Part shown: one piece after another, positions 142-58,557 of the stretch
How the letters are laid out: each line of letters opens with the position of its first letter
How positions within the stretch are numbered: the stretch's first letter is position 1
DNA from: Antedon mediterranea
Lineage: Eukaryota; Echinodermata; Crinoidea; Comatulida; Antedonidae
Direction of reading: 5' to 3'
Assembly: GCF_964355755.1 (NCBI RefSeq)
Contig: NC_092670.1
Location: 15,251,201-15,315,200 of the forward strand
Length of the DNA: 64,000 nucleotides
The notes under the pieces: model-generated
Databases searched by the model: none
What the model was told of the DNA's origin: nothing
The model's input: the letters and a program-made list of their open reading frames with translations, nothing else
Translations under genes and position numbers: made by a program

Positions 142-1558
142 GCCATAATGAATTCTTTACGGTCTGCCGTATAATCCACGTATCCATCTAGAAGACTCCA
201 TCCCATTTCTTGTGAAATGGAAGTACATTCAAGTTTTAGTGGGGTTAAGATGGTCTGGTTGGTACCACAATCGATACATGTTAAAGCAAGAAGGTTTTCG
301 GCAATCAGGTTGTCTCCTATTTCGTTGCAATAGTATTCTGGGTAATAGTTAATCAACTGGAAAGATAGACGCCAGAAAACACGTACCTATTGAAAACAAA
401 TTCACATCATAATCAGGAATTATAACAAAATGATAATACTCTTTACTTTGGACGCAAGTAATTTGACCAATCACAACGTGATGGAGCATCCGAATTGTGG
501 ATTGTGATTGATTAAATAACTTGCGTTTATACTACTATTATTATTACTATTTAGGCGTACATAAGAAAATGAATATTTAAGTCCAACAGAAATAACATTG
601 AACTAAGATTATAAATGATAACAATGTCCAATGTTCAAATCCTACATACAGTGAACTTTTATATCGATTCGTGTTTCATTCATTCATTTATTCAATAGTA
701 TGTAGGCCACTGCCACAAATACAATAAGAGTTAATAATACATAATAATTACATTTAAGGAAGCCTAATAGTAATAGCAACATAATTATTAGTTCTCTTTT
801 TATATGCGAGTAAATTATTTTAAAACAATCAATATTTAAAAACAGACTTGAGAATACCACAGGGATACAATATTTTAAAAGCAACATATAAGAACATCAA
901 TAATACTATAAAAATTACTTGATACTGGTTCCAATAATTACTTAAATTATGCAAAAAAAACTGGCTAAAAAAATTTTTTTTCTGACTTTACTATGCTCAA
1001 TTGATTTCAATTAAGATTATTCAGCGTTATACAACCTGATCGAGTAAGGAACAACGGATTTTTTATATCTCTCGGTTCTACATCTGATAGATCATACAGA
1101 TCATTTATCTTGGAGCGCATTTTATGATAATTACTATATAACGGGTGTTTTGCATCTTCCTGATATATTTCTGGTTAAGACCTATAATATTTCATGACTA
1201 AAACCATCTATATCTTAACAAAGAATAAACCTAGTCTAGTCTAGAACTCACAGGTTAAAACCTATCAATGTACGACTTTTATAAACACAAATTATAGCAT
1301 AGGATTTGATCGAGGAATTGGGGAACTTATGAACTTAATTTAACTCACAGTTATTGTCCATACCAATATATAATGGGCAATGGATATACAATACAAAGAA
1401 CTACATAAATTATGCCTGTTCTCGAGTTTGTAAGAAAATCAAGGTACCTTAGCTTTTCCGAGTCTTTCATAGTAGAACGTACCGCCACGGTAGTGAGTAG
1501 CGTACACCTCAGCTACCATAAACACCATCGCTAAGAGCACCAAACTTCTCATGATTAC
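142..1558 (-). CDS. Copy 0: 5' exons of a secreted HYRGG/ZP-family gene (partial)
   Basis: Two coding exons of a gene transcribed right to left that leaves the window. Exon 1 is 1448-1558 with the ATG at 1552; it encodes a hydrophobic signal peptide (MRSLVLLAMVFMVAEVYA) followed by THYRGGTFYYERLGKAK. Exon 2 is 142-386 and encodes a module starting VRVFWRLSF with cysteine pairs (YYCNE, LTCIDCG, ECTS), ending ADRKEFIMA at a GC|GTAAG donor. The acceptor before exon 1 is CAG|GTAATC and the donor after it is AAG|GTACCT. Phases match copies A and B exactly, so this is a further paralogue of the cluster. The remaining exons should lie left of base 1. The role is unknown; by homology with the full copies it should be a secreted ZP-domain protein. 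Confidence 0.85.
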
Positions 1559-1960
1559 CTGTCAAAGGAAACAAACAAACTCTTGCAACTCTTACAAAGA
1601 ATTAACCAGGAGGATGCATTTTACCCTAAATCCAAGACTATCCCAAATAGTTATTATTTTGATTTGATCAGGGAAGAGTGAAATTACAATTATTGTAAGA
1701 AATTTGCACCTAAAAAAAAGAATGAGAATATAATTAAAAGCATCATTGTTACAAGCAGTAAAATTCCTTTTTCAACCTTATTTAAAACAACTTGACTAAT
1801 CAAATAAAAACGGAAAGCAGACAGGGAAAACAGACATAGAAATGCAATGATAGCCCATGAAAGTCAATAGTTAAAGTGGACTTGTTTCCAATGAGGTCCT
1901 TTAGAAAATATAAAAGAATTAAAAGAAACAGAAAAAAAAAACATTGAAGGAAAAACTTAC

Positions 1961-3304: not shown

Positions 3305-3719
3305 CTAACAAAAGAAAATAGGTTACTAGAATCTATCCAATCTATTGTCAGCGAATTGCAAATACTTAACATCCAATGTAAATTCATATTCTTGATCTAT
3401 AAAGAATACATTTTGTATACATTTTGAAATACATTAACATGTAACTTAGGAATGAACAAACCCTGTTATAAATAGGCCAGGAGCCAGTCTACTATTATTT
3501 TTGCAAGTAGGCCTTCTGTAGCTTTAAAAGGTATTTCAAGTTTTATAATACTAAAAGTATAATACTAAGTGCACAAATAAAATGTCTAAAAGCAGTAAAA
3601 AATTGACAATTTCAGAATACTGTACTGGTTCGTTTACTACTACAGTATAGTAACACACCAGTGACATTTTACCTAGAACCAAATTAAACTAATATCCAGA
3701 GCAATTCTGAGGCACCAAA

Positions 3720-4351
3720 TAGTGGGGAACCTAATGTTCCAAATATCAATTCCGTGAGATTTTAATGCTCAAGTTGAGTTCTTGGCAGTTTTGGAATCCT
3801 TAGGACTAGTAGAATTCATTGCAACTGGGGTCAATTTTTCCCGACCCTATTTTGGCCGCCATATTGGATTTCAAAATGGCCCCCATTTTGTACTCAAAAC
3901 TGATAGTAGTTCCTATTTTAAACCACGTACGAACGTAATTTGTGTGACAAATCTTACAATATTATGATAAATCAGTCATATGGTACAATTTATAATAATA
4001 GCATATGGCAACCATATTGGATTCTAAGATGGCCGCTATGAAAAACGTATATAATGTATGCATTTATATATTTAATCATCACATTATGGCTGCCATATGC
4101 TATTATTATAAATTTGACCATTGGACTGATTTATCATAATATTGTAAGATTTGTCACACAAATTACGTTCGTACGTGGTTTAAAATAGGAGCTACTATCA
4201 GTTTTGAGTAAATCTAATATGGTGGCCAAAAAATGGTCAGGAAGAATTGGCCCCAGTTGCAATGGAGTCTACTAGTCCTAATGATTCCAAAACTGCCAAG
4301 AACTCACCTTGAGCATTAAAATATCACGGAATTACATTAGGTTCTCCACTA
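3720..4351. mobile_element. Long foldback MITE, TA-flanked
   Basis: The left end TAGTGGGGAACCTAATGT and the right end ACATTAGGTTCTCCACTA are near-perfect inverted repeats. Pairing continues inward for nearly 300 bases per arm around a centre near 4,030-4,060. No coding capacity. The TA at both ends would fit a Tc1/mariner-type target, which is inference. A copy at the same relative place lies in the right duplication unit. Confidence 0.75.
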
Positions 4352-4647
4352 AAAGATGTATAACGCTCTTGTTTTATTTTTGAACGAAGGTTTGAATGAT
4401 AATATACGGAGAGCCGTGTAATGCTGATTGATTATAAAAAGCTTCGACCTAATTTTTAAACATAGATGAGATCCGTGTATGATTTGTAGAAGCGTTTTTA
4501 GCATTCACTCCGTGTGAAAATTGACCAATATCTATCGTCATGGGCATCACCTAGGCATAGAGGAGTTCCTCAAAGCTCCTGAATGATCGACCCACTTTTG
4601 ATCATCGTCTATATTATCATTATTATTATCATCATCATCATTATTTA

Positions 4648-4880
4648 CCACCTCCGCCAAGGAGGTATATGTAATCGATCGCGTGTGTTTGTTTGTTTGT
4701 TTGTTTGTTGGCAGGATTACTCAAAAAGTAATTACAAGATCTTTCCCAAAATGAAAATACAGATAGATATGCGGTCAAGGACCACTCCATTAAATTTTGG
4801 AAGCAATTATTCTGGACCACTTTTTAGAATTATTTTCATACCTGCTAGTGTTAAAAGATAGTACAGAATTTTCAAAGCTG
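4648..4880. repeat. Dispersed repeat beginning CCTCCGCCAAGGAGG
   Basis: The start CCTCCGCCAAGGAGGT is followed by a GTTT run, GGCAGGATTACTCAAAAAGT and AAGGACCACTCC. Other copies lie at 33,962-34,195 (its duplicate), 23,165-23,392 (reverse orientation) and about 59,137-59,330 (diverged). It is non-coding and interspersed; class unknown. Confidence 0.6.
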
Positions 4881-5283
4881 GTGAGCAGGTAACGAGTAAA
4901 CTCAAATTGCATTTTCTCGAGAACTACTTGTCTGAAAAACTTTTTTGTTCAAGAGGCAAGAATTATAATTTGTGGTTTGTAATTTTAAAACATAATTAGA
5001 TTTAATGTACACGTTTTTCGAGTAGTTTAAAAAAGCTATTTCTTTTCAAATTCATTGTTTGTTTTTCGGGTTGCTGTTCTATTGTTAGTCAGCTGAAGCT
5101 ATTGTTAGTTGAAAGGCTGGTTACATAAAATAACTATCCCACCAAACTCGCATACTGTACACATGCTTGTAGTGAAGTTAGTCTAAATCACACACAATTT
5201 TTCCGGAGACTAAATCTTATGTAGAAGAATGTTACAGTAGGTGGAACTTTGCACTCTCGGAGTGGCTTTCTAGTTATTATTAT

Positions 5284-5371
5284 GAGTGAGTAGAGCAAAG
5301 CGGTTTAAGACAGTGAAACCGTAATACCCTACCATATTAATATCGGCAAGGTTTCGATCCTCACTCGCTCC
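5284..5371 (+). repeat. tRNA-like sequence (SINE head or tRNA pseudogene)
   Basis: A GAGTGAG 5' arm can pair with CTCACTC near the 3' end. GAGCAAAGCGGTTTAAGAC resembles an A box and D arm, and AAGGTTTCGATCC resembles a B box and T loop. The length fits a long-variable-arm tRNA, but no clean anticodon arm folds, so it is probably not functional. Duplicated at 34,600-34,687. Confidence 0.4.
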
Positions 5372-7303
5372 ATGGTTCTGGTGTTAGAACTATAGTTTTC
5401 TCGTGCACTTTAAAGAATCTAGTACATTTTTCGAGACAAGCTACGATGGTGTGTCATCATGCTTCACTTTTTTGCGCGTTTATTAGATCTGTTTATTGAA
5501 TATGGATGTCTTGTCTGGTATACCAGTTTTACTAATGAGTCTAAACAACTTGAAAGGATCAAAATGAAGCTCCCTGCCCCGTCCCGTCTTCAGAGGCCAT
5601 CAATGCTTAGTGCAACATACTTTAATAAAGTATAAAATAACACCGTCTCCGTTCTCTTTTAAAAGTAGCCCCGACTCATAATTATAACTTACGTAGATAT
5701 TTGAAATCTCGTCTGTTGTAACTTCAATCACATACATTTGAGATTGCCGTACAGCTTAATTCAATTGAATTGAAAAACTGGCGTTGCGAGCAAACAGGTC
5801 ATCACCTTTCACTAAGCATATAGATATATCTCTATGCACTAAGAAATGTAGCTCATGCATTCCTAGTTCAAGTGACCGAGGCTCAATCAAAAGAAATGGT
5901 TGAAAGTGATGTATTTTTTTAGAATTATGATTGAAAATGGTTGAAAATATTAAAATATGTTTGTTTTATTTGTTTGGCTTATAATTTACTTTTTCAAAAA
6001 AGGGAAGAAGACAATGATAAAAAAAATACCATTTCTGATCCGAACCTATTCATTTTAACATAAATATGAATATCGGCGTTCTGAACAATTTGATACTATC
6101 AATACTATTTTATGTCAACCTGTTTTTGGATGGGACATCATTTAAATTGAGATCCTAATATGTCAAAATTCCTACTTTCGGTCATTGTTTGCAAAAGGAA
6201 ACTGCTATTAGAGTGAATATAAAAATTCATAAGAGTACGTTCTTTGGCACCAAAATTATATTTCTACATCTGTTAATTATCGAGGACTGCAAATGCACCA
6301 AAATACGGGAACAATTTTGTAAAAATGTAAATGAAATTACGTCAAAGGTCAAAAACTATAATTTCCTGTAAATGTTGGCCAAACTGTCGCATTACCATAT
6401 CAATGTGGTATTCTGCATAATTTCGAAACTAAAGCTTCGATGCCATACCGGTTATTGAGCTATGGATCCCATTTAAAAGCAAGGTAATGTATCAAAAGTC
6501 CTACTTTCGGTCATTTTCTACAAAAAACTTTCTGAGTACTTTGGTACAAAAATTGTATTTCTTCTAGTCCCTGAGAAATGAAATGAATTACTTAACATAG
6601 GCCTACTTAAATCCAACATGGCCGACTAAATGGGTAAAAAAACAACTTGATCTGGTAAATAGACATACTTGGGAATGGAAAAAAACAATATTTAAAATAT
6701 ATACCTCAGGAGTGCATGGGAACCCACATTTCCTACTAGACTAACAGTAGTAGTACAATAAAAATAGTTTAAAATATCAAGAACCGTCGATACACTAGAC
6801 TGCTATTAAAGATGACATTTTATTTTTATTTATTTATTATTGTTTACCCTTTTTTCGTTTCAACATTTTTAAACGCAGAAGAAATACTGTATTTGTTATA
6901 TATATCGGTATATCTTACTGAAATATCAACCATGTTTTACTGTTTGTTATTCATAGTTAAATACAGCTTATAAGAGTGTAATAAAAAAGGAAACGGATTG
7001 AAATTAACCAAATTGCTCAAAAGCCAGAGCTTCCGGGGAATTAATAAATGTCACAATCAACATCTTCGTAACCTTAATTTCGATTTTACCTGCTCTCATT
7101 ATACACTAGAAACTATTTACGTCTTCATTCATAATGAACGGGCACAATTTGTTTTCACAATTGGCAGCGAATTCTAGGTCCAAACAGTATATATGTGTCG
7201 TCAGTCGTAGGTTGCCGAAAATCGTGTTAATCCATATCATTTTCATTGCATTATGTAAATTCAGAAAAAAAACCAAAAAATAACATTTAAACTTTGTAAA
7301 ACA
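5372..7303. other. Gene-free 3' flank of copy A
   Basis: AT-rich sequence with no supported gene, present almost unchanged in the right duplication unit (about 34,690-36,610). It contains only short open frames and simple A/T runs. Confidence 0.5.
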
Positions 7304-7309
7304 TTTATT
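7304..7309 (-). terminator. Polyadenylation signal of copy A
   Basis: AATAAA on the minus strand, about 65 nt past the stop codon at 7374-7376. Duplicated at 36,612-36,617. Confidence 0.6.
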
Positions 7310-7373
7310 TCAGTAAACAGAAGTCATCGGTTATAGGTTATTTATCATTGATCTTTTGGATTTGATTCATATG

Positions 7374-10300
7374 TTACATTCTAAATGTCATAAAGGTATC
7401 GATTTCCTCTTCAAACGTGCTGATACTTCGCCGACGTCTGGAGCAGTTACCACGCTTGATCTCAGCACAACGTGAACTACTTGCTTCAGGTTTACACGAT
7501 ACCATCTTACATTTCAAAAATACCTAGACAAAAAACAAATGTTGTATGAATAAATAGCAAATCTCAACAGTCTCGAATAATACAGTATTAGAAAATATCA
7601 ATGCAATAGTATTTTTTTGTTATGTAATATAACATCCCACTACCCCACACTCTCTCTTTGATTATGGGTTAGTTGCAATATAAAGTGTTTGATGATAGGT
7701 CAGTTTTCATAACAGTAAATGTCATCACTATTTTTAAACAAAGACTCTTACCTCGTTAGTTAAGCCATATTGCAGGAATCCAAATGATTTAATAGAGAAG
7801 CGGTGATCCAAGCCAGAAGGAATAAAACTGACGGATGAGTCTACACCACACCTAAATAATCAAGAAAGAAGATCATTACTTTAATTATAGAAGTCATAGT
7901 CATATATACTTTATTGTCCATTTAAAAAACAGAAATGTGATTTGAAAACTGGCAAAATATAAAAATATAAAATACAATTTCCAAAAACACACACAAAAAG
8001 TTAAGAGGCTAAAAATTGTTAAAATTAGATAAAAATTATCGGTTACATTTTACCTTTGTACGAGTTATATAAGTGTATAGCATTAGGTACAAACGAGCAC
8101 CTAAACCGTTTTGTTTTGGTATTAAGTGCACGTAGTCTTATGCCAGAATTCATGAGAGCAAATTGTTTGTGAAGAGGATGTGTTTCATCATCAATGATAC
8201 TTTTTACTTTTTTTAACACATTTTCTTTATACAAGGATTCAACATCAGGTAAGTGCTCTCCTACTAGTCTAATTGCTCTATTTCCTATTCGATTAAGTTT
8301 AATTTTATCTTTTTGCATTGTATTACCATAAAAACAAACATTACAAAAAAGTATTACACTGAGAATTACAGAGTTATAAAACAATTTAAGTATAGTTTTG
8401 TCAATTTGTAGGTACTTCATTTTTCTTAAAATAAACATCCTTTGGTTGGCTTTGCATGTGGCTTTATTTACATTATTTATCCAATTTAGCTTATTGTCAA
8501 TTATACAACCCAGATATTTGTACTCATTTACTACTTCAATCTCATTTTCATTTATAATCAGAGGTTCTAAGGGTTCTTTAATTTTCCTAAAATCAATTTG
8601 CATTTCTTTTGTTTTCTTTATGTTTAGTTTCAGGTTGTTATTGCAGCACCAGTGATAAAAATCACATCCTAGTTGTCTATAGCTTGTTTCATCATTGCCA
8701 GTAATGTATCCAGTGATGACTGTGTCATCTGCATATTTTACTATACAACATTCATTTGAATTGGCTCTGAAACTGCTGGTGAACAGTGAAAACAACATTG
8801 GGGAGATAACAGACCCTTGTGGCGTGCCAATGCTAACAGAATAATGTGTTCTTATGCACTGTTGAAAATCAAAGTCTTGTCATGTGTCTTTTTGTAATTC
8901 ATTACAAAAAAATATGAAAATTGTTCAACAGAATTCCACAATGGGACACGCAGGGGAAGTTCACGTAAAGAAAATTACATGCCAGAGATGTCCAAATAAT
9001 TATCAAGTCAAATGAAATCAAAATCTTCTTTCTTGTATTACAATTATAATACAATTAATATTCAGTAATAGTATAGTTAATAGATAATAATTATCTGAAA
9101 AAATATATAATACATAATAAGCTAAATGAGTAAAAAATATGAAGACAATTGTAGTAAAAGTATATAAATATAAACACCTTACCCGTTTTCAATGAATGTG
9201 TATTTCTTGTCATTCTCTGTGCATGTTCCAAATTTAGCCATTGCTTTGCAGCTTTCAATGGCAACGTCCTTCGAAGATGTGCTCTGCGCAGAAAAGTACA
9301 AGGTTTCTTTGAGTTCAACTGATGCAGTTCCAGTGATGTCTGTTCTGTAACTTGAGTCTTCATACATCTTAAGATAAGTCTTAAACTCTCCAGTTGCTTT
9401 GTATTTTTCGGGTTTTACTGCTGCCACTGGTTTGAAGAATACGTCATTAACCTTAAGTCCTCTCATTTCACAAATAATTTGCATCTCAACCTTATGCTTT
9501 GCTCGGGTTACTGGTGCACCTGGGAAGATTGGTTTCGGGTCGTCTCTGATTGTGTTGTAGAATTTAGTTTTCGATTTTGATGAACGCTTGAAAAAAAAGC
9601 AAACTGAATATACAGACATGTTTTAAATACATGTATTCCTAATAACATAACTTATACATGTATATAGATATAACTATATCAACTAAAGACAGAGTTAAGT
9701 TCAATTGACGTCGATTTAAAAAAAAGGAAGCTAAGTAGATTCCATATTTTTACGCAATGGCCAATAAAAGACTGTACGCGTAACATATTACAGCATTTTG
9801 ATTGAAAACTAAATATATTGAAATTAAACGTGTATTTCACCAATAAATGCATTACAAGTTGACGCATTCCAATGAGTTTTAGTCCTCTATTATTGTTGCT
9901 CTTTTGGTGCTCCATAGATACAGAAATATTGAACAACTATTATTACTATCTACTAAATATTTTTTTATTTTACGTATCTCCTCCAAAACCACTGAACGGT
10001 ACGTGCTCACATTTGGCACACAGATGTTTATTGATGGACTGCACACGATAGGCTATGTCACTTTCCTGAATTCTAAGGAGAAACGCTAAAAAAGGCAAAA
10101 AATATCAGTAATTTGACGTCTCAGCGACCGTGTTACGTCACTGTAAAAATTACGCAACCTCCTCTTTGTGTAGCGCCATGGCCGGATGGATCTACAAATA
10201 CCATGCCAGGCCGCCAAAACACCACTCTTTAGTCAACCGTATCTAATGATCACGTCGTTGAAGTTTATACACATAGTTTGAACAGAATGATTTTTGTAAA

Positions 10301-13300
10301 TCATGGTATGGCTCAGTAAGTAAATCGCCGTGACCATTGATATCAATGTTTAGTACGTTTGAGTTCGAATCCGCGACATGCTTAAATCTAAAAATCAAAA
10401 CTAGACCTCAATCTAATAATCTAATTACAAAACTAGCAAAACGGATATGAAACCTGACACACAAAAAGCAAAATATAATAAGCCATGAAATTTAAAAAAA
10501 TGTAAATGAACAGAAAAACATTCTGACAAACAAAATATCACAACGAAAAATACATTTGAAATATAGTTTGGTATTTTATAGGCCTACTTTCGTTAGTGTC
10601 CGCGCGCATCATCTTATCATGCATTTTTTGTGTTGATTTCAAGACCGTGGCTGTGGTTTTAGAGGCTGTGGTTTTATTATGCCAACATCTCAATTCTATA
10701 AATTATCAATTCATATCATTGAAATGTTTTCAACTGCCAACTGATTATCAGAGTTCAACCTGCCTCTCATGTACAACGTTGTTACTTTATGATGCGCACC
10801 CTAGATTAATATTCACACCGCACAATTTTTAGCGACTTCCATTTTCATAAAGTCCCATATCCAGTACTGCTTTCATTTTGTAGCTCATAGTTACTTAAAA
10901 GTGAAGGAATACTTGGTGTATAACAAAATCCATCGCTTTTTATGAGGGAAGAGTGAATCTTCATAAAGTAATAACCCAAATTTGGAGTCAAAATGCAAGG
11001 CAGGGAACTAGCGCCGCCGGGGCCTAATAGTACGTACGTGGACAACAATGAAAATCGTTCGTACTACCTAGCCTACTAAAACAGGAATATTGTATGATTA
11101 CACCAATTATTATTATATATTATTATTGATTACTTTATTTTATACATAGGCCTGGCACTTTGTCAACACTCCTCATATGGAAGATACAGGCAACTCAGAT
11201 TTTAATATAGCCTACTAAGCTTTTGTGACGTGACCATATCAATTTTCCTGAAATTCAATAGGCATGTTCTATAAGAATATAATTTTATTAAACCGACAAA
11301 TTCAGAATGATAACTTCAAAATTGTAGACGCTATCGTGCTAACAAACAAACAAAGCAAGTACTATTTCACCAAGTAAAAATCAGCATATTTTTTACCTTG
11401 ATGATGGTTCCACACTCGTCATAATCAAACTCAATCGTGTAGTACATTGGGTCATTATCCTGAATTCTGCATCTTGTGTCGTGAAGGTGAAGCTCACTTG
11501 CTGGAATGTTATTCACGTACGTTTTAGGAATGCGGACATTTATGTATGATTCTCCGCATTCTACTTCTGGTTCTGGTGGCTTAGCTATAAAAAATGAGAA
11601 ATATAACATTGAATAATAAAAGATAGGGGACTAATACATTTTCAGATTTAGGCCTATATTTGGAAATATTATACCTACGTACAATATAACAAGATCCTTT
11701 GGATTGCATAGTTTGCAAGAAGTAGTTTATACAACCGTTTATACAACTTTTAGTATTAAAGTATTATGTATGTAAATTACAAGTGAGTGTAGGCCTACTT
11801 ACCGATTTCAAAGCCATACATCCGTTCATCATTGACAGCCTTGGTACTCAAGCCACATGGAGTTGTCCAGACTCGCTCACTAAAACCTGCCTCAACTTTT
11901 ACAAGATAATCTTTGCCTCCTTCTAGACCAGTAGGTGCAGGGTATTGGACAATCGTGAGATCACTTTTTGGGAACCTTACTACATCTTCAACAGCATTAT
12001 ACTTGGTAATTATATTCTTTTTCGAGTCTAAGATTTTGATGTGTGAATTGTTTGTTGGACGTTGAACCTATAAGTAAAATAATATATTGGCGTATCTTAT
12101 TCTGGTCGAGATTTTATAGGCCTACTGGCTTTATTTTCTACCGCCATGCCCGACTTCTCCGCGGTATATTATGGCGTTTCGTGATCTCATTACAACGAGT
12201 ACAACGTAACAACATCAAATGAAATTAATATGTACTTTTATTCAAAAGAACGATGGCCTCTTACATGTAGTATTCACTGATCCATCAAAACTGAACAATG
12301 GGTACCCAGTTTGCTATGCATTGAACCTACGTCATGTCATAGTAAAGAGCGCCGCCGTACCAATACGTCAGATTTAACTGTGATTACTGTATACTTACGG
12401 GTCCATCAAATGTAATTGTCCAAAGTTCCTCTGTTCCCTCGTACACGGAGTTGGCCACTGGGGTTGATTGGTTTAGTAGAATTACAGGTGGAGCTTGTGT
12501 ATTTTCTAAATTATTGAAACGACCATCGGCTAAACCAACAACAATGTAAAAAACAGCGATAATAAACAATAAACGAGTTTTTGTTTACATATTTTAGATA
12601 TCTTCATGGTAAAATGTCAAATACCCGAAAAGACGAAATATATTTTTTTTATACATTCTTATATGCAAAATGGCTTAAGTCTTTAAAGCACAGATATACC
12701 GCAGTTAGAGACGCAGTCAAATATTGTCAAAATACATAATTTTTGCCAAAAAGGTGACGGTGCACTGCCATTTACCGTACAAACACAAGATGCTCTACAA
12801 AAAGTATTGCATTAGGTATTTGTGAGTGAAATTGAACATGTCGTGAGAATATACCTAATAGCGTTTAAAACCAGTAATAATGAATCAATAGAAAAGGATC
12901 CAAACCCCCAAGTTACAACTCTACTAAATGAATCAATAAAGAAAACATTGGAACAACCCGCTGATGGAATTCTAAGCAGGGTAGTATCATCTGGTCACCT
13001 AAGTGAGCGAGTTGGTTGATCAGATTTAATAATTAAGAATACTCAGATAATAAATGATAAAATGATAAACACGTAACATAAAACACAAATGATAATGTGA
13101 ACTTACCTGATACAATCAAACGTCCAGACATAGGATCATTCTGAACACTGCAAATCAATTAAAAGTATTTTTATATAGAATGATTTAAAATGAAACTACA
13201 TAATATAGACCAACATTAATTTATTGATTTATTCACTGCAAAAGTTTAAAAAAATGCGCATGCGTTGTGACGTTTTTATTCCACTTACCCATTATCATCA

Positions 13301-30060: not shown

Positions 30061-30079
30061 ATATATAAAAAAAAATCAA

Positions 30080-32880: not shown

Positions 32881-33034
32881 CAAGTGCACAAATAAAATGT
32901 CTAAAAGCAGTAAAAAATTGACAATTTCAGAATACTGTACTGGTTCGTTTACTACTACAGTATAGTAACACACCAGTGACATTTTACCTAGAACCAAATT
33001 AAACTAATATCCAGAGCAATTCTGAGGCACCAAA

Positions 33035-34599: not shown

Positions 34600-34687
34600 G
34601 AGTGAGTAGAGCAAAGCGGTTTAAGACAGTGAAACCGTAATACCCTGCCATATTAACATCGGCAAGGTTTCGAGCCTCACTCGCTCC
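34600..34687 (+). repeat. tRNA-like sequence, duplicate of 5,284
   Basis: Same paired GAGTGAG/CTCACTC arms; the B-box region has changed to GGTTTCGAGCC. Confidence 0.4.
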
Positions 34688-36611: not shown

Positions 36612-36617
36612 TTTATT
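36612..36617 (-). terminator. Polyadenylation signal of copy B
   Basis: AATAAA on the minus strand about 65 nt past the stop codon, as in copy A. Confidence 0.6.
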
Positions 36618-36681
36618 TCAGTAAACAGAAGTCATCGGTTATAGGTTATTTATCATTGATCTTTTGGATTTGATTCATATG

Positions 36682-45600: not shown

Positions 45601-45751
45601 TACACAAATTAGGCCTGTTATTGAGTTTGAAAGAAAATCAAGGTACCTTTGCTTTTCCGAGTCTTTCATAGTAAAACGTACCACCACGGTAGTGAGTAGC
45701 GCACACCTCAGCTACCATCAACGCCATCGAAAAGAGAACCAAACTTCTCAT
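36682..45751 (-). CDS. Copy B: secreted HYRGG-module / ZP-domain protein, 14 coding exons, 786 aa
   Basis: Exons in transcription order: 45647-45751, 44852-45096, 44373-44557, 44084-44211, 43804-43951, 43317-43431, 42598-42753, 42416-42456, 41708-41838, 41113-41377, 40707-40894, 38491-38894, 37060-37159, 36682-36831. Lengths and phases equal those of copy A. From E3 to E14 I see only three residue differences from A: A-to-B N/S in E4 (RWANN/RWASN), L/P in E10 (SDLTI/SDPTI) and D/G in E11 (EFDYDEC/EFGYDEC). At the latter two, copy C shares the B residue. E2 differs strongly in its first half (SFQLIDSYPEYYCNKVGENL). Intron 1 is only 550 bp. A TATA box and non-coding exon are present, so this copy looks intact and expressible. 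Role as for copy A. Confidence 0.87.
37203..38280 (-). mobile_element. 5'-truncated LINE RT fragment, duplicate of 7,895-8,970
   Basis: The open frame 38106-37351 is identical in protein sequence to the left-unit copy, with the same YADDT motif. One upstream in-frame stop in the left copy is a sense codon here (near 38,190), so this copy is slightly better preserved. Confidence 0.75.
39612..39691 (+). repeat. tRNA-derived SINE-like sequence, duplicate of 10,301
   Basis: Same A box (39620-39631) and B box (39672-39683), in intron 11 of copy B. Confidence 0.5.
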
Positions 45752-47376: not shown

Positions 47377-47382
47377 GAATTC

Positions 47383-50300
47383 CTACAGAATTTTAAAAGT
47401 CATAAACGTATCGCTTTCTTCTTCAATTATAGCGCCTCTTCGACGTCTGGAGGAACAGTTGCCACTTTTCAGGTCAGCGCAACGTGAATTACTTGCGGGT
47501 TTACATGACACAATCTTACACTTCATAAACACCTATAATTATAAGACACACTTGATAATGGTGCTATAAACTCAATAGTTACATCGTTATTTGTCTCCAA
47601 AATATATTTAATATTCTCGAAAAATATACTTGTTTAAATAAAAAAAATTAAACACATACCTCGTTTGTCAGGTCATAATGCATGAAACCAAAAGACTTAA
47701 TAGAGAAGCGATGATCCAAACCAGACGAACTAAGACTGACGGCGGATGGACCAACACCACACCTAAATATGAAGTTCAGATTTACCTTTGCAACATTTAG
47801 CATTGTTTATCCTTAATTAACCATTCTTTTTTAATATTAATCTGCACATCTTTTATGTACTTTGCAACTCACTTCATAACAAAAAAAAGCAAAAATATTT
47901 TCTTATTTTTCTATCATTTCAACCTCATTATACGCTTTAGCGTCTCTCATTTTGTTAGTCAAACCGGCCAAGGTTGAAAAATAATTTTACTCCTTATCTC
48001 AAATTTCAGCTTTAAGATTAACTTAACACAATAACATAATTTATGGGATGAAATATGTGAAAGAATATTTTGTGTAAAATCAAATTTCTGCACTAACCCA
48101 TTTTTAATAATGGTGTACACTGTGTTATTGTGTGTGCACGTTCCAAACTTAGGCATTGCTCTACAACTTTCAATGGCAACCTCTTTAGAAGAGGTGCTAT
48201 GAGCAGCGAAGTACAACTTCTCTTTGAGTTCAACTGATGCAGTTCCAGTGATGTCTCTGTTGTAACTTGAGTCTTCATACATCTTACGATAAGTCTTAAA
48301 CTTTCCATTGGCTTTGTATATGTCAGGTTTAACGTCTGCAGCCGTTTTGAAGAATACGTCATTACCACCGAGTCCTCTCATTTCACAAATGATTTGTATT
48401 TCAACATTATGCTTTGCTCGAGTTATTGGAACATCTGGCAAGATTGGCTTAGGATCGTCTCGAATCGTGTTGTAGAATGTAGTCTTTGATTGTGATAAAT
48501 GCTAGAAAAATAGAAATAGAAACTGGACATATCCACGCAATTGAAAACAGGTTAACGAATAGATAATAAAGAAAACTCTATAATACTATAATAATTAAAA
48601 CCTTAATGATAGTTCCGCACTCATCATAACCAAACTCAATCTGGTAGTACATTGGGTGATTGTCCTGGATTCTGCATCTTGTGTCGTGAAGGTGAAGCTC
48701 ACTTGCTGGAATGTTATTCACGTACGTTTTAGGGATGCGGACTTTTATGTATGATTCTCCGCATTCTACTTCTGGTCTCTTAGCTACAGGGAGCGAGAAA
48801 ACAATTATACAACACAATACAAAACTTTGATTCTTTTTTACATACTTTTTTTTTTAAGGAGTGTCGTAGAAATAGTAGTAGGATAATTTTGAGTAATTTT
48901 AAATATTTTTTCTCTCTCTTTCTTTCTCTTTATTAATTACATAAAATGCAATAAAAAATAATCTATGCTTTAGTTACCGAAAATAATTATCAGTGCCTTT
49001 ATTCATGTCCAATTTGTGTAAGATTTCAGTGTAAAAGCTGTAGTACATCGTATATTCTCCTTTGTAATATGTGTTTTATTCTTTGATCGATAGGAAAAAA
49101 AAGATTGAATTATTGAAATATTGAAATGCGTAGACCTACTAGTACTTACATGTTTGAAAGTTATACATGCCGCCTTCACCAACAGCAATGTGGTTACGAC
49201 CACATGGAGTGCCAAAGACTCGGACAACAAATCCTAGATCAACATCCACCCGATATACTCTGTCACCTAGTACTGCAGTCGGTGCAGGGTATTTAACAAT
49301 CGTTGGATCACTGTCTGAAAATCTTACAACATTCATATCAAGAGCATTATACTTGGCTATTACTTTGGTAGTGTTCATGTCTTGAATCTTGATGAATGCC
49401 TTCCATCTTGTTGGACGTGTGACCTTTAGTATAAAAATATTGGTTCAAAGTTTCTAACCAAATACCTTGTTTAAAATAAATCAATCCTCTTTCAATAAAT
49501 ATTTACAATTAAACCTCCTAAACCCATGAAACCACTTTGGCATAATGTAATTAAGACTGACTACACCAATGTGTAATACCATGGACGTGTGGCATGCAAG
49601 AGTCTTCTAAGCAACAGAAGGCCTACTTACGGGTGAATCAAATTTGATTGTCCAAAATTCTTCTCTTCCCTCGTACAAAAAGTTGCAAGACGGGTTCGAA
49701 AATTCTGGCAAAAGAACAGGCGGATCTACATTGACATTCATAGGAAAACCGTAAGCTACACCAGTAACAAGAAAAAACAAACCCGTTATAATAACACAAA
49801 GAAGCATATTTTATGCTCTAAGCATTTTTAAATATTACATTAGCAAATTTAAATGTCGTCCTATTTAATGATTTTTAAAACGTACCAGATACAATCAAAT
49901 ATCCAGCCTTTGGATAACTTTGAGCACTGTAAGAGAATTGGGAAGAAAGAATGTATAGTATCCCTGGTTAACCAGGAAAGAGTGTATTTTCACTCTATAA
50001 CTGGCACACGAGTATATCATACTTAATATTGTTCATACTGTATTATGTCGTTTGGAAATTATGATGAACCTCATAGGCATACTCACCCATTATTATCTGT
50101 AGCCGTAAAGTTGAATATATAGGTGCCTTCTTCATTAGGTCTAAAAGACAGTTTTGCTTTGACGACTTTCTTGCCCGGTTCTGAATCTTTAACGTATGAC
50201 ATTATCATTCCATATGGAAGACTTCCTTGGATTTCAGTTACACTAAAAGAAACTGTTACGATAAAATACTACGACAAAGGCACAGTATTTGTTTTCAAAC

Positions 50301-53300
50301 ATTTCATACCACAATTTTCACGCTGCTGCTCTTGCCCGCTACGTCCCGTTAGGACTACTCAATCAGAAGCTAAAGCAAGCAACAGTTATAGTTCTAATGA
50401 CGACAGTTTTGCGAAAATGGAAACTCCACTATGATTTATTGATTCCAGCTGCTACAGTAGACCCAAAAAAGTCTGGGAAAAGAGTCTATTGGGACATTTC
50501 ATGCTAAAATTACAAATCCCAAAGCATTTCTGGTATATTCACTGTCAGATATTCATTGAATTATTATCGAAACAGTCCATTAAAGTTTGTGTTTGTAATA
50601 GGATACTTCACACTTGAAATATCTAGGGTGATGAAGTGACCCCCAGACTTGACCTTAGCAATAAAATTAACTAAAGTGACAGAAATTGAGTATTCACTTC
50701 TGTAAAAAAAATTTTAATTTACATATAAAAAGAGAAAAGAAACCCCAAAACCATTGTCTGACAGACAATTTAAGTATTTGTTGCTTTAAATTACATTTTT
50801 TCAGGTAAAATAACTATTATGTGACAATAAAATGACACATTCAAAAATTAAAAAATATTTTTCAATAAGCGAGCAGCGTTTTTTGTAAGAAATATTTCTT
50901 GTTTAGTTTGTTACTATCTTTCTCTAGTAAGATAAACTCTGTCGCAAAAAAGGAGGGAACTGTTTTTGTCAGTCTGAGATAGATAAAAATATTCCAGAAA
51001 CAAGTTTCTCAACATGTTTGCAGAAAGAGGGTCACAATCTCATTAAATAATACAATTTGTCTTTATCAATATCTACTGAGACAAAAAAATATATACTTTT
51101 GTGCACCTGATCCCTTTTGTATTGAAGCATCTGAATCCTTCGGTATTAAAGCAGTGACTACACTGTTCCAAGTTTCTCCAGGAGCAATAACACTGCACTC
51201 CTCTAAATCAATTCTTGGTTTTACAACTGCAGTAGTGAAAAATACCATTTGAGTCTAGGGATGATGAGCCCTTGATAAATATTTATATCTTTCAAAATGT
51301 GTTATCTTCACAAAACATAATTTTACATGACGATGTTTTTTGTATTGTTTGAGACCACAAAATAATAATAATAATAATAGTTTTCTCTAATACTTACGAA
51401 TACTGAAAACATATCTGAAAGCAGAGGAGCTGTGTAAGACTTTGCACAACATACACGCATTTAAAGTAACTGAAAAACCTTTATCTAAAGATACCAAATA
51501 TGTTCCAGCTTCCAAGTTTTTTAACGCTTTATACCGAGCTATCGTAGGATCGCCTGCAGGAAATTCTACCTCATCTGGATTTGCAGCATCATATTTGGCG
51601 TATTTTGTTCCGGAACTATCCATTACCATAATATACGCAGATTTTTCTGGTCTGGAAATCTATTGACAAATGTGGTGAAACATAAACTTAAGCTCTGTCT
51701 ACACTAACTAACTCGTTCGACAAAAAAAAAGTGTGATGTGCCCAAATATGGTAGTGATATGAAGACATTATATCTATATGAGCACATCACATATTTTTTT
51801 CACATAAAGTTTGATCGTGTATACAGAGCCTTAGAGTTGGCTACACATTTTAACGTTATTCAACCGCCCGATGGTTCATAGACCCTTTATTTTGTGTAAA
51901 ACGGTTTCTAATAATATTTCACTGTCACTGTTACTCATTTATTCCAGGGTTGTCCTACTTACGGGTGAATCAAATTTGATTGTCCAAAATTCATCTATTT
52001 CTTTGTACAAAGAGTTGCTAGATGGGGTCGAATATTGTGGTAGAATAGCAGGGCTCCTTTCTAAAAATACAAGACCAACCAATGTTAGTTGTGATTTTAT
52101 AAGAGATGTTCACAGATAAGGGTGTATCATTATGGTAACAAAATGAATTATGTTCTGTAAGAAATCACTCATATCATGATATTATAATTTATTACATAAT
52201 ACAATATGCAAATATTTAATGTTTTAACTAACTTGCAATCAAACATCCATTCTTCGGATCACTTTGAACACTGATTAGTATTTTTATGTAGAAAAAAAAA
52301 GAATTAAATTTCATAATTGACATATGTTTACAGCATTAATAAAACATGTAGATTGTTTATAATCGTTATTTTAAAAGGCGCTCTTTAGAATTAGTTTTCA
52401 GTTTCCATATGAAAACTAGGTATGTTTTGTAAACCTACGTAGCTTACCCATTGTTATCAGTAGCTGTAAAGCTGAACACATAGATACCCTCTGCATTAGG
52501 ACTAAACGTCAGGTAAGCCTCTATTCTGCGGTTAGTTATCCGGGTCTGAAAGTATGACATTCCCTTTGGATAACTCCCCTGGAATTCATTTACACTAAAT
52601 CAAAAATTCATAGTTACAGTAAAATAATGGTAAATATAGAATCGGTTTAATAACAAAACAAACGTTTTTAAAATGTTATTCTGTGGGAATTTATTTGAAT
52701 GTTAATGTAGGCCTACGTCTTAAGAAAAACAAAAGGTCTGGAATACATACGTCGATGCACTTGATCCCTTTTGTAATGACGCAGTAGCGATACTGTTCCA
52801 GGTTTCTCCAGGAGCAATCACGCTGCAATCTTCAAGATCAATCTTTGGTCCTATACATGATCCGGCTAAAGAAAAGAAAAAAAAGAGATGCAGATTCGAT
52901 TAGACGATACATTCCTGTGCTCAAAAACACAACTCTCGTCACACAAGTGTTGAGCGAAACATGTCAATTTATTTGTTTTAGCTAGTTATGTGCAGTAAAC
53001 CACTACTTATATTGGCTGGCCTGGCTATTAAAGTTGATTTATTATGTACTTAACTCATATATAACTACATTTTACGACGATAACGGATTTAAAGCCGATT
53101 TTCCACTATTCGAATTATGCGCATGCGTATACCAGTTTCTGTTTGCCATACTCCCTTCTGTGACGAATTCTAGTTCTTTGATTTTTCGCCGCAGCGAAAT
53201 TTACTACTGTAGTTAGTTATCCGCACCTTGGCAGATAACTCCTTGTGATTGTATGAAATCATCATAAACTTTTTTTTGTATTATTAGTTATCCGCTTAAT

Positions 53301-56300
53301 AACTCCAAGTTATTGTAGGCCCCCTATTGGATCATCACTTTTTTCTGTATTATTCTTCTTTCTTTTTTCCCTTTTTGTGAGTCGCGTTTCTCTAAAAAGT
53401 GTAAACATAACATTTCATAACTTTGACAACATGTGGACATTTACGTGAAGTTGTACACCTCCTATTTTTGAAAGACATCAGAGTTGCGCAACGATTTTAT
53501 GAATTTCAATAATTGATCAACAGATTAAACACCAAAAGTCACTTTTAATTTAATTTAAGTCATATCAAGGGCAAACTTTCTATGGAATAAAAATGTCATG
53601 TTTCAAAAGAAGTTAAGATTTCGATTTAGTTTTTTTTTTTAATTGTTTCTACGTTTTGCGAAGCAAAATATTGCGCAACCAATCAGAGCTCAAGAAATGA
53701 GCTATGAAGCTTTCATGCAAATCGAAAACCTCAGCAGTCACAGGAACATGAACGTCGTAGTCTGAGAGATGAGTCGATTTAGTGCACATATTTTACCATT
53801 GGTCTTAATATGATTTTTGTTTGAGACATACATTGGTACATCGGAAAACCCAATTTTTAAGTGATGCACTTTTAGGTCAGAGGTCAATGACCTATTCTTT
53901 CACGTAATTTTACCAATATCTTTATTTTATGGCACAGTATTTGATGAAATGCGTCAATTCTTTTTTAAATTAGGCTCAATTCAAAGCTGATGAATCATAA
54001 AAAGTCATTTTACAAAAAAATAAATGGAAAATAAACTAATTTTATTTTTTTATTTTAATGAATAAATATTTTCACATTGACCTTGTATGTAAATTAGCTA
54101 ATAGTATGGAGCGCCGTCCGCCAATATAACGGTTATTGTTGTTTTTATTAGCACTGTACTATATCTATCTAAATATATTTATCATGCTTATAAAGTTAAG
54201 ATATATATTTTGCTTAGAAAACGAAATTAATTAATTCATTTATCTTGTGACCATAAATTGCTTTATTTGGCAATGTAATTATTATTTTGTTAATAACTAG
54301 GGGCCAGAGGCCTAACGTAAATAAAGTCAGGCGATAAGCCTGAATGAATGTATTATTACGTACATTTCTTTTCCTATAACAATTTATATCAGGCCTAGTT
54401 AATGTTATTATGTTAATGAACTTTTCTCATTACAGAACTATGAAATATAAACTACATTAATATTTGTTTGGAAAGAAGAATATTAGTTTGAAATAGAATA
54501 GTGCAGTAAATTTTATTTTATTTTGATTGTTAATTATTTCATTCACCAGAGGAAAGGCAGATACTAGATGCAGGGGCTGCCATAAGAGTCAGCAATGCTG
54601 ATTTCAAATGCCTAACGGGACCCCAGCTCCATATACAGCACCCGATATTCCCAGATGGTCTCCCATCCAAGCTCTAGCCAGGCCCAACGTTGCTTAACTT
54701 CGGTGATCTGAAGAGAACCGGTGTTTCAACGGTGGTAAAGCCGTATATAGAAATATTGAGGATAAATAAAAAGTACTTATTTTGTTTTTAAAGAAAAAAA
54801 AATGGGCCGTCAACTTTCCAGCTCGATAATACTGGGTCTACCTCCCGATTTGTGTTAATAGATTTCAGCAAAACCAAAAAAATACAATTAATTCAGCAAC
54901 GAAACAAAGCCAGACTAGGTCTAGCTGGTACTATGTTCGTACGTTACAGACGATTTACCAGCAGAATTGAAGTGGGTCCTACGAAACTAAGCCGAGGGAA
55001 GAGAGAAACATTCGGTTATTGATACATGCATTTATCAATCCATAAATGGTCTTAAAAATGATCTTTGACTATGAAAACATGGACCACTTTTCAAAACCTC
55101 TTCTGGCGACTAGAATAGTAGCCGAAATTGTGCTAAATGAGTAAGGTATTATTATACACAGAAGTAAAACACATTATAGCTTGCCCTCAATCGGTCGATA
55201 ATTCTATTCACATATTATATGGCTACTTACGTGACGTAACTTTGAGTAGAAATTGGAATGGAACTGTGCTCTTAGCTTTTTTGTAACTTTTATCTTCAAA
55301 ATCTTCAATCATAATGGAAGCGGCATACCAACCTTCCGCACTATCTTCTCCGGTATTAAACTCGATCGTGCATGATGTCTACAATAATTATATTAACATT
55401 AACAACATATGACATTTTCAGTTGTCTTTTGGTTCATCAGTTATTTATCAAATTCACGTACAAGAGACTATCTGTACATCCTTTAAATGTGTTTTACGTT
55501 ATAGTTGTATTTGTTATGTTTAACCAGTTCATGTTAACTAAAATTATAGATAACTAGATGGTACGCTCGCTTCGCTCGCGTACCATCTAGTTCGTGCCCA
55601 CAGATGGTTCTCGAATACATAGTAATTTCAGCGTAAAAAAACTGGCGATTTCAAATGTACGTACGGCAGGACTATAAAACATTGTCGTTTACAGAAACAA
55701 ATAAATAGACACAATTATTTATGTAGTCAACCAAAATTAGCACCTAGAAACTTGTCACAAAATGAGTCGAAATTTGTTATTTGAACTCATTTAAACAAAC
55801 CCAATTTTGTTAAATTATTCTTTATATTTCTTTATTATCCAATCAGTAACGAAATATTTTTTTTATAGGCCTATAAATAATATACCACTAAATAGAGTAA
55901 AACATTTCCGATTTAATAATTTATTAAAACTGTCACTGTCTCATGGTCGATTGAAATAGTAAAGTACATTTAAAGACCACTAATACGTTTATATTTTTGT
56001 AATTATTAAATAATACAAACGTTGAGAAACAACTGACAGTAATAAAGTATATTATGTGTTTATAATCTAAAAGTAGGAGCTACCCATACTCACAGTGATA
56101 ACGTTTATTAGTATATTTGTTTATATTCTAACAGTACCAACACACTTTTGAATCAAAAGTGGTTAATACCTATTTCCAGTATTGTATAGCATTACAATAC
56201 TATTTCTGTTTATTCTCCAAGGGTCTATAAATTTACCTACTTGTGTTAAACATGGAGGTATGCAATAATTTGGAATGTTCCATTCATTGCAAATCAATAC

Positions 56301-58557
56301 ATTTCTATAAACGTATATTAAATCTATCAAAATAGTATTTTTTAAAGAAAATCGGCCTGTCTTCAACATTATGATGCTGTACTCGAGCTGTTCAACCGGT
56401 TTTCAGTCATTAAAAACAGTTATTTTAGGAGGAGATAGGAAAATGCGAAGCATCCTCGTATTATTGTATGCGGGTATTTTTCACAATGGACATGTATTAG
56501 ACAGTGTATACCACGATCGGAAAACATCCCTATTTGGGGCAAATCGTTGAACCTAAATTCGTTTTAATTGTCAATAACTAATTATCTGACTCAATTTAAT
56601 TAGTAAAAAGGGTTACATCAGGTGGTTAAAATCAGTACCGAAAGTACGAACCAACTTTATATACCATCGAGTAAACATTATAGAAGTAAGGCGCGATTTA
56701 CCGAATTTTGCCCTTACGTAAATTTATATATAGATATCATTATAAATAACGTGAAAGAGGAAAAAGAAGAATATTCTGACAAAATCTTATAGTTTCCGTA
56801 ACTACCGTATTAAGTGTTGTAAAATCTGTGGGACGTCCACACACAGGATCATTATTGTAAAGCGTATCACTTCGTCTCTCTGGGCATTCATTAGTTCTTG
56901 TCCATCGACATTTAACTGGATCTCCGTCTATATCAATAGCTAAAAGATAAACAAGTATGTACCATTAAGAAGGATATACACACATAAATAAACTTTGTCT
57001 ACACTATCAAACTTTATATGACAACAAAATGCGATGTTCTCATATTATATGGATATTTATGATGTCATAATACAATATTTGGGCATATCACTACCATATT
57101 TGGACTAGTTTGACAAAATGGTTAGAGTTATTTGTATTTGGGTAGCTATATCTAAATATAAACAACTCACGGTTAAGATCGATAACTCTGTTACAGCCTT
57201 GTCTGACTCGATGAACTGGTAAACCAGCCATAACTCTTGGAGAATTGTTTTCCAATTTTATTGAAGTGTCAACTTTGGTCAGTAGTGACCAACATTTTCC
57301 ACCGCCGTAGTTTTGAAGGCCAATCCAGCTACTATCAGAACATTCTTCTTTTGTTTTAAAACTGACAAGAAAAATGAAGATAATATAAAACTCTTGTTTT
57401 CAACAAAACTTTCTTCTACATGGCTGCAGGCGCGTGCGCAAATTTGAGTTAAGCTTGGTTCCCACTAGAACGTAACGCAAGGACGTAAACGCAACGCAAA
57501 AGCGTTTTAACCAATGACAAGCGAGGTTATAGGCAGTTAGCCAATCACAAGCGAATAAGCCATCGCTTGTGATTGGTCAATTCACTTGCGTTGCGTTACG
57601 TTCTTGTGTTGCGTCGCCAGTGGGAACCACGCATTAGTGTTTACCGACATTTAGTGTTTACCGTCCGACACAGTGAGCTATTAGAGTCGAGTTGCATGCG
57701 AATTAAAATACTATTTTCTGTGTGTTTGTAAACAATGTCGTTTATGTTTTTTAAATAAAATGTTTGTGTATTTCACTAATACTGATGCTCTAATTAAAAC
57801 AGGATTTTTATAGATGAGTTCAAATTTAAATGTAAAAAAAAAGGCCAATGGAAGAGAAGTGACAAACCAATAATGATATTGTATCAACAGTTATAAAGAC
57901 AATCTGAAAACTGTATATCTACTATAGCAAAGATACACTTGTCGGCCAATGTAAGTAATCGTGGATCTGATACATTGTAGTCTTGAGATTGAAACCTCAG
58001 CCCAATAGTGATTATGAAATTCGGAAAGGAATCATTGGCTGTTTAGCTTAGTTTTAAAAACTGTCAAGATTTTGACTCTTTAAACAAATAAATGTGTATA
58101 GGCACTACTCCTGAAAATATAATTTCATTTAAATGGAGGATACCATCACACTGTCTTCATACTGTCTTATTATGCGTACTAAATGAACACGAGCATGTAG
58201 GCCTACTTACGCAATTGTGAATGCCTCGCGGTCTGCCTTATAATCAACGTATCCATCAAAAAGACTCCATTTCATCTCTTTTGAAGTGAATGCACATTCA
58301 AGATATAGCGGTGAAGAAATTGTTTTATTTTCACGGCAGTCTGTACAGGTCAAAGCAAGAGCTGTTTCTGCTTGCTTTTCTTGTCCAATAAAATTACAAA
58401 AATACTCTTCGAAGTCGTAGTTTTGTTCAAATGCGAGACGCCAAAAAATACGGATATGTTTGTTGCCAAGTCGTTCCCAGTAAAACGTGCCACCACGATA
58501 GTGAGAAGCGTACACCCCAGCTACCACCAAGGCCATAAAGAGTACCAGAGTCCTCAT
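47383..58557 (-). CDS. Copy C: HYRGG-module / ZP-domain protein with duplicated E6-E10 cassette, 18 coding exons, 1,014 aa
   Basis: Exons in transcription order: 58211-58557 (E1+E2 fused), 57171-57361, 56806-56939, 55231-55378; cassette a 52751-52865, 52448-52594, 52233-52270, 51963-52060, 51398-51659; cassette b 51097-51226, 50087-50242, 49886-49926, 49631-49755, 49150-49423; ZP 48602-48783, 48098-48501, 47660-47762, 47383-47532. The sum is 3,045 nt, in phase. The signal peptide MRTLVLFMALVVAGVYA precedes SHYRGGTFYWERLG. Middle modules occupy about 274-493 and 494-735, the ZP domain from 736; RRRR-G precedes the tail. Some donors are weak (GTAGTT after E4, GTTTTA after E11, GTTAGT twice), so transcript evidence matters. 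It is the most diverged copy. The ATG is chosen because an acceptor (CAG|GTCATT) lies just before it. Confidence 0.82.
49150..51226 (-). repeat. Cassette b: second E6-E10 exon set in copy C
   Basis: Five exons matching E6-E10 of copies A/B in order and phase (1-1), encoding LVKPRIDLEECSVIAPGETW, then EEGTYIFNFTATDNNG, GYLIVS, EFWTIKFDSP and DPTIVKYPAPT. It is closer to copies A/B than cassette a is. The first exon is extended by five codons (15 nt), with a repeat-like DSDASIQKGSGA. Confidence 0.8.
50316..50915. repeat. Dispersed repeat R1, third copy (reverse), in an intron of copy C
   Basis: Reverse-oriented match to 62,075-62,680, ending near the palindrome AAGAAATATTTCTT (50,887-50,900). 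It lies in the intron between E6b and E7b. Confidence 0.65.
51398..52865 (-). repeat. Cassette a: first E6-E10 exon set in copy C
   Basis: The five exons encode PGSCIGPKIDLEDCSVIAPG, then AEGIYVFSFTATDNNG, a short linker, EFWTIKFDSP and a diverged E10 with DPTIARYKALKNLEAG. Two exons (E8a, E9a) are shortened in frame. It is clearly paralogous to cassette b. Confidence 0.8.
51691..51830. mobile_element. 140-bp MITE, TTA-flanked, in an intron of copy C
   Basis: Ends AGCTCTGTCTACACT and GTGTATACAGAGCC are imperfect inverted repeats, flanked by TTA at 51688-51690 and 51831-51833. A related but more decayed copy lies at about 56,990-57,130 (TTTGTCTACACTATCAAAC). The target size fits PIF/Harbinger. 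Confidence 0.65.
53090..53130. repeat. Single arm related to the 3,119 MITE
   Basis: AAGCCGATTTTCCACTATTC followed by GCGCATGCGTA matches one end of the 41-bp inverted-repeat MITE. I did not find the second arm nearby. Confidence 0.45.
53221..54560. other. Long intron stretch of copy C without a recognised feature
   Basis: AT-rich intron 5 sequence. Short frames only, two AGGCCTA words near 54,300-54,400. Repeat-derived origin is possible but I see no ends. Confidence 0.4.
54628..54747 (-). repeat. 5S rRNA-derived sequence (5S pseudogene or SINE3-like element)
   Basis: The minus strand reads a full-length 5S-like sequence: ACCGGTTCTC, GATCACCGAAGTTAAGCAAC, GGGCCTGG, TTGGATGGGAGACC (internal control C box), GGGAATATCGGGTGCTGTA. 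Both ends of the 120-nt molecule are degraded (no GCCTAC start, ATATGG in place of AGGCTT), and there is no T-run terminator. About 60-90 nt of unrelated sequence follow, as in 5S-headed SINEs. It lies in intron 5 of copy C. Confidence 0.75.
55554..56734 (-). mobile_element. Helitron-like element, second full copy (intron 4 of copy C)
   Basis: Same termini as 17,860-19,018: TCTATATATA at 56,734 and the GCGTACCATCTAG hairpin end at 55,554. Flanked by A and T on its own strand with no duplication. 1,181 bp, no long open frame; small indels distinguish it from the first copy. Confidence 0.7.
57452..57633. mobile_element. 182-bp MITE with TGGTTCCCACT ends, TTA-flanked
   Basis: Left end AGCTTGGTTCCCACTAGAAC; right end, on the other strand, TGCGTGGTTCCCACTGGCG. 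TTA duplications at 57449-57451 and 57634-57636. Inside are CAATCACAAGCG-type inverted repeats. Fits a PIF/Harbinger-derived MITE. It lies between E3 and the fused E1/E2 of copy C. Confidence 0.75.

Follow-up and report, generated by a model that had tools for sequence, protein, structure and literature searches.

Tandem HYRGG and ZP-module genes of the crinoid Antedon mediterranea, their intronless relative and a variable exon-2 loop

The gene array and its relatives

A stretch of 64,000 nucleotides on contig C1 (NC_092670.1) of the Antedon mediterranea assembly, referred to here as the window (C1:15251201-15315200, within a searched genome of 354 Mb in 18 contigs), carries an array of genes whose predicted proteins join an N-terminal module beginning [TS]HYRGGTFY to a C-terminal ZP domain. 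The genes lie head to tail on the minus strand, and the array extends past the window limits; the 122 kb examined hold eight copies (A, B, D, E, G, H, I and J), six open and two damaged, plus two exon-1 relics (Table 1). The motif HYRGG, with at most one mismatch allowed, occurs at six sites in the window, all on the minus strand, five of them exact and the sixth, at 63027, reading HYRGE. Gene models were built by spliced alignment guided by the protein of an intronless retrocopy described below; those of A, B, D, E, G and H are free of stops and frameshifts, while J has a frameshift within its ZP-C exon and for I the spliced alignment yielded no exon 2.

An earlier note, made from the letters of the window, had proposed at least four copies of one 14-exon plan on this strand. 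Copies A, B, D and G (the last just outside the window) do have 14 exons each and one shared series of intron phases (0,2,1,0,1,2,2,1,0,1,0,2,0), but exons 1 and 2 are fused in E and H, two of the six open copies. The same note counted a single relic where there are two, and took position 142 as a cluster boundary, which is merely the end of exon 2 of copy A, a gene that runs on outside the window. Intron 1 is absent from E, H and the retrocopy alike, which may reflect either a precise loss or a late gain of this intron.

Copy E is a mosaic gene. Its minus-strand reading frames correspond exon for exon with those of D, and its exons 1-5 are nearest H (81-94%), exons 11-14 nearest A, D and G (67-90%), and exon 10 nearest copy I, at 56%, where A, D, G, H and J reach 35-44%. 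The middle block of E occurs twice in frame (51398-52865 and 49150-51226), with entry and exit both in phase 1, and the gene has 13 exons, or 18 with the second middle block, which is without the PGSC start. The 18-exon model comprises 1003 residues with no stop inside and a stop codon one codon past its end; both middle blocks may share one transcript. A 5S ribosomal RNA match (83.6 bits) lies within an intron of copy E (window 54630-54748, minus strand).

Relatives are found outside the array. Two of these, C7 (open) and P25 (first exon doubtful, trimmed), share the 14-exon phase pattern; M1, M2, P36a and P36b could be modeled in part, and stops or a frameshift interrupt M2, P36a and P36b; and five more places on C1 are known as exon matches only (near 35.25, 35.28, 35.48, 36.17 and 37.73 Mb, the first by the ZP part alone). 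When matches are grouped by hand, the family, retrocopy included, numbers about 20 loci in the genome as a lower bound. A distinct group of strong ZP-C matches lies on contig C10 at 21.41-21.51 Mb. The genome also has a let-7 match above cut-off, in keeping with a bilaterian, and gave no match to mollusc haemocyanin, GH6 or bantam in searches whose controls likewise gave none.

The retrocopy and the protein plan

Searches of the genome with the N-terminal and ZP parts of D gave 61 and 51 matches, respectively, and the best in both was C3:5504589-5506937 (L001), where one frame is open for 783 codons from the aligned ATG, with no intron. Comparison with the array by blastn gave a block-by-block match to copy H at roughly 85-95% identity, the block edges falling within 5 bases of H exon edges wherever an intron is missing. 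The similarity spans 153 bases 5' of the ATG and about 437 bases 3' of the stop, terminating at nine A's. We read L001 as a processed retrogene that can serve as a natural complementary DNA. In that role it lends support to the small exon 8, the stop codon, the absence of a membrane anchor and the exon joins, which had previously been drawn from splice sites and phase. Upstream of the retrocopy, L001 695-1015 resembles, partly in inverted orientation, a region that precedes copy H (-10041 to -10589).

Between H and the retrocopy, the synonymous (dS) and nonsynonymous (dN) rates are 0.126 and 0.106, and their ratio (w) is 0.85; assignable synonymous/nonsynonymous changes number 10/51 on the retrocopy side and 14/51 on the H side, with 34/80 unassigned. 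Drift amounting to 0.063 substitutions per site would be expected to leave about 5.7 stops in the retrocopy, with a probability of 0.003 of finding none (0.062 at 0.03 substitutions per site). Because its 783 codons have stayed open though drift predicts these stops, the retrocopy looks maintained, with a fast-changing protein. This evidence bears on the suggestion that most of the array is made up of duplicates in decay and that few of its genes still work. The frameshift in J, the missing exon 2 of I, the two exon-1 relics and the retroelement frames amid the copies all speak for it. That suggestion is very improbable in light of the open retrocopy, the six array models (of eight) without stop or frameshift, and whole-gene pairwise w values of 0.22-0.55 among A, B, D and G, indicating purifying selection.

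The predicted proteins run from a hydrophobic start through the [TS]HYRGGTFY module and a middle region to ZP-N and ZP-C, a furin-like site and a tail of 17-20 residues. On the spliced D model (759 residues in its first version), Pfam recognized ZP-N (6.9e-11, 42.8 bits, cut-off 24.7) and ZP-C (9.8e-15, 55.3 bits, cut-off 24.6), bearing out a ZP domain in exons 11-14, a claim that the earlier note had let hang on such a match. Each was present in five of the six members scanned, one of which, J, was cut ahead of most of ZP-C. The first D model matched uromodulin in PDB (1.6e-7), and profile matches to PDB were to uromodulin (6.1e-13), GP2 (8.5e-9) and also TGFBR3. When the genome was scanned with the ZP-C profile itself (20 candidates scored), the window was absent from the matches, in our reading because the domain is divided among exons; its detection required spliced models.

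An alignment of eight sequences (the retrocopy, A, B, D, E, G, H and C7) has four invariant cysteines in ZP-N, six in ZP-C and 14 before these in every sequence. A ZP-C with three disulfides, hence six cysteines, is described in PMC7456536, and judged by sequence all eight have the conserved cysteine count of a ZP module (4 in ZP-N and 6 in ZP-C). All eight likewise have a putative furin-type motif, RX[KR]R, after ZP-C, where such a site is frequent though not universal in ZP-module proteins; it had been noticed earlier, with 17-20 residues thence to the stop (which in E and C7 lies one codon past the modeled end) and MT[FL] close to the end of the short tail. No hydrophobicity window above 1.6 that might mark a membrane anchor was found beyond residue 30 in any of the eight, and the stop is backed by the 3' untranslated region of the retrocopy.

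The N-terminal part is less familiar. The first ~480 residues matched nothing significant in Pfam or PDB, in agreement with the earlier remark that no named gene with this order was recognized. Matches to Ig_Pom152 (0.034), CopC (0.03) and PKD (0.15), models that we presume to be of Ig-like folds, were too weak and were not used; a whole-protein alignment of exon fragments, giving low identities against the 50-90% expected, was discarded as misaligned. AlphaFold2 applied to exons 1-2 of copy E with three relatives predicted mostly strands at a mean confidence score (pLDDT) of 61, and a Foldseek search of this structure gave 0 matches at E 0.001; no fold is claimed for the module because of these two results. 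Repeated ZP-N domains before the ZP module, as in VERL-type proteins, were not found by sequence: the D model and the retrocopy each hold a single ZP-N stretch, and a divergent ZP-N fold is possible. Similar HYRGG starts may occur in predicted proteins of other invertebrates. A literature search, with most papers outside its reach, found no published report of this HYRGG and ZP architecture, and its sole text match to HYRGG, a paper on macaque KIR antibodies, was judged unrelated from its listing. In short, these ZP-module genes form a genuine family, for the most part open, with an N-terminal module of ~480 residues that Pfam does not describe at about 20 loci of one genome.

Divergence and selection among copies

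Copies B and D (3567-15936 and 32882-45240) are 98.7% identical across 12.4 kb, with 0-8 mismatches per 200 bases in the left flank, yet two bins at the exon-2 end have 23 and 11. Within exon 2, bases 1-26 are identical, bases 27-48 differ at 14 of 22 and bases 49-93 at 5 of 45, an instance of the local divergence among tandem copies that had been reported earlier. The 27 codons around this patch, which was spotted first and tested afterwards, have 14 nonsynonymous and 3 synonymous changes between B and D. It could be argued that the near-identity is an artefact of assembly, with two haplotypes joined in a row and the patch differences being allelic; the identity of 98.7% over 12.4 kb, with 0-2 mismatches in each 200 bases of a ~9 kb part, would suit such an origin. 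It is nevertheless improbable: intron 1 spans 5.2 kb in copy B against 0.55 kb in copy D, mismatches in the left flank rise to 8 per 200 bases, and further copies lie on both sides.

The B patch differs at only 5 of 22 bases from a spare fragment of exon 2 within intron 1 of copy G, against 12-14 for the patches of A, D and G, and none of 50,000 random regional 22-mers was as near to it as this fragment. Because both sequences are exon-2 copies, the closeness shows only kinship and is not proof of exchange. The B/D pattern fits patchy exchange between copies, with hypermutation or selection on the loop as possible alternatives. A more elaborate scheme, of low probability, would have an anchor-free ZP coat family diversify its outward N-terminal module by short cassette exchange: kilobase gene conversion would homogenize the copies while a loop of ~7 codons in exon 2 was swapped or hypermutated, with intronic spare partial exons as templates, leading to differing binding loops. 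Retroelement frames lie between B and D (window 24303-27940, minus strand; reverse transcriptase, Pfam 1.2e-33; endonuclease, 7.7e-10), a reverse-transcriptase frame lies in intron 12 of B (8043-8879, minus strand; Pfam 1.2e-12), and a frame of similar size is found in the corresponding duplicated intron of D (37351-38232, minus strand).

Table 1. Features of the array, in window coordinates (numbering continued beyond the window for parts of copies A and G)
Feature	Position	Strand	Remarks
Copy A, exons 1-2	142-1552 (1448-1552, 142-386)	minus	open; exons 3-14 outside the window, to window coordinate -5659 (C1:15245541)
Copy B	7377-21069	minus	14 exons, 778 residues, open
Copy B, exons 1-7	20965-21069, 15542-15786, 15062-15246, 14775-14902, 14495-14642, 14008-14122, 13289-13444	minus	
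Copy B, exons 8-14	13107-13147, 12399-12505, 11803-12067, 11397-11584, 9183-9586, 7752-7851, 7377-7523	minus	
Copy D	36685-45751	minus	14 exons, 778 residues, open
Copy D, exons 1-7	45647-45751, 44852-45096, 44373-44557, 44084-44211, 43804-43951, 43317-43431, 42598-42753	minus	
Copy D, exons 8-14	42416-42456, 41708-41814, 41113-41377, 40707-40894, 38491-38894, 37060-37159, 36685-36831	minus	
Copy D, ZP-N and most of ZP-C	38491-40894 (40707-40894, 38491-38894)	minus	exons 11-12
Copy D, end of ZP-C, RRRR furin-like site, 17-residue tail	36685-37159	minus	exons 13-14
Copy E, mosaic gene	47389-58557	minus	fused exons 1-2 at 58211-58557; open
Exon-1 relic (ALHYRGGTFYWEKINN)	32657-32707	minus	like exon 1 of copies I and J; HYRGG motif; further exons not found
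Exon-1 relic (APHYRGETFYWEK)	62985-63086	minus	HYRGG motif with one mismatch (HYRGE); further exons not found
Low-mismatch block, B against D	6567-15500 (B), about 35871-44804 (D)		0-2 mismatches per 200 bases, ~9 kb
Variable 22-base exon-2 patch, copy A	339-360	minus	
Variable 22-base exon-2 patch, copy B	15739-15760	minus	
Variable 22-base exon-2 patch, copy D	45049-45070	minus	
Copy E loop region, residues 44-50, aligned to patch	58408-58428	minus	spans site 47 of the alignment, numbered as in the retrocopy
Spare 5' part of exon 2 with acceptor, intron 1 of copy G (L007)	71120-71218		loop like that of copy B

Site models (M0, M1a and M2a) were fitted to A, B, D, G, E, H, the retrocopy and C7, with the gene split in three parts, using in-house code unchecked against a standard program. 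For residues 18-275, M2a was favored over M1a with twice the log-likelihood difference (2dlnL) at 16.6, assigning about 1.2% of sites a w of about 10, including sites 47 (in the loop) and 125; null simulations of this part (n=25) reached at most 4.96. The value was 6.6 for residues 276-498 and 0.0 for the ZP part (499-783). For the first part, leaving out one sequence at a time gave 4.98 (H), 6.51 (retrocopy), 7.65 (E), 11.20 (B), 14.02 (D), 16.61 (C7), 20.88 (G) and 25.35 (A). Between E and H, exons 1-2 carry 22 nonsynonymous changes and 2 synonymous ones. The diversification proposed in the earlier note is therefore seen in the N-terminal module, but not in the ZP part, nor in A, B, D and G by themselves.

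A putative coat and its counterparts

Taken together, these genes probably form a tandem family of secreted ZP-module glycoproteins that build a polymerizing extracellular coat with a fast-changing outward module. A furin-type cut at the basic site would remove the short C-terminal tail, which would act as an external hydrophobic patch (EHP); the ZP-N/ZP-C module would polymerize after removal of the tail; and the HYRGG module and middle region would reach outward from the filament to contact binding partners. Duplication, exchange between copies, module doubling (as in E) and retroposition would remodel the array while the exon-2 loop diversifies. As to the coat itself, an egg or embryo envelope is a tentative choice held with less than even confidence, and an apical epithelial coat is possible but held more tentatively. 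If the coat reading is true, the locus is a matrix-forming ZP array with a conserved polymer part, one fast-evolving loop and an intronless copy fixing the gene structure, and it would help in asking how coats go on assembling while their recognition surface changes.

Several points weigh against this reading. The site-model signal vanishes in A, B, D and G alone (2dlnL 0.00) and drops to 4.98 once H is removed; because these four give 0.00 while E, H and the retrocopy with A give 20.06, the diversifying signal appears to reside mainly in the E, H and retrocopy group. The ZP-C of H against the retrocopy has a w of 1.94, counter to a simple contrast between the N-terminal and ZP parts, and inter-copy exchange breaks the single-tree assumption and can inflate site tests, a concern that persists after the three-part split. 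Outside the array, P25, P36a and P36b are without a clear furin site. The signal peptide was judged by eye, with a hydrophobicity window above 1.6 at residue 1 in only three of the eight aligned sequences, and the tail is one that we take to be the EHP from its position. Lastly, uromodulin requires membrane anchoring, and a construct ending after the EHP was secreted, yet uncleaved and unpolymerised (PMC7737619); by analogy, polymerization of the anchor-free array proteins may fail.

Uromodulin is nonetheless the source of the predicted mechanism. A cut after its ZP-C frees the EHP strand, and ZP-C then takes up parts of the next subunits (PMC7737619); because uromodulin polymerizes in this way, the array proteins should do so after cleavage. 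Uromodulin and GP2 share the ZP-N/ZP-C module with the array proteins and are the best PDB profile matches. In uromodulin a hydrophobic strand lies behind the cleavage site, where the array proteins have the furin-like motif and the putative EHP tail. In contrast, uromodulin carries branch domains of the EGF and D8C types and a glycosylphosphatidylinositol anchor (PMC7737619), where the array proteins have the HYRGG module and no anchor. This kinship raises a different reading, in which the products are soluble or mucus-coat proteins of epithelial defence or adhesion, similar to uromodulin or GP2, whose variable loop binds microbes rather than gametes. Their standing as the nearest solved relatives by profile argues for it, as do the multiple copies and the N-terminal signal of diversifying selection, but the match is solely through the ZP module, which egg coats also have, and we consider it rather unlikely.

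The polymerizing coat that we favor has other counterparts among ZP proteins, for which PMC13361971 was an additional source. The amphioxus egg-coat proteins BbZP1-5 have signal peptides, four of the five are without a detected transmembrane segment and three have a furin site (PMC3543715), comparable to the anchor-free array proteins with their furin-like motif; two BbZP orthologues of B. floridae are tandemly linked (PMC3543715). BbZP2-5 differ in carrying LDLa and vWFA domains, neither of which was found in the array proteins. The abalone egg-coat ZP proteins VERL and VEZP14 are duplicated and, like those of the array, combine a C-terminal ZP domain with a fast-evolving N-terminal part, which in the abalone proteins serves in binding (PMC3567151), although their N-terminal part is of ZP-N type and that of the array matches no ZP-N model. 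Duplicated, fast-evolving ZP proteins are known from egg coats (PMC8830517, PMC3567151).

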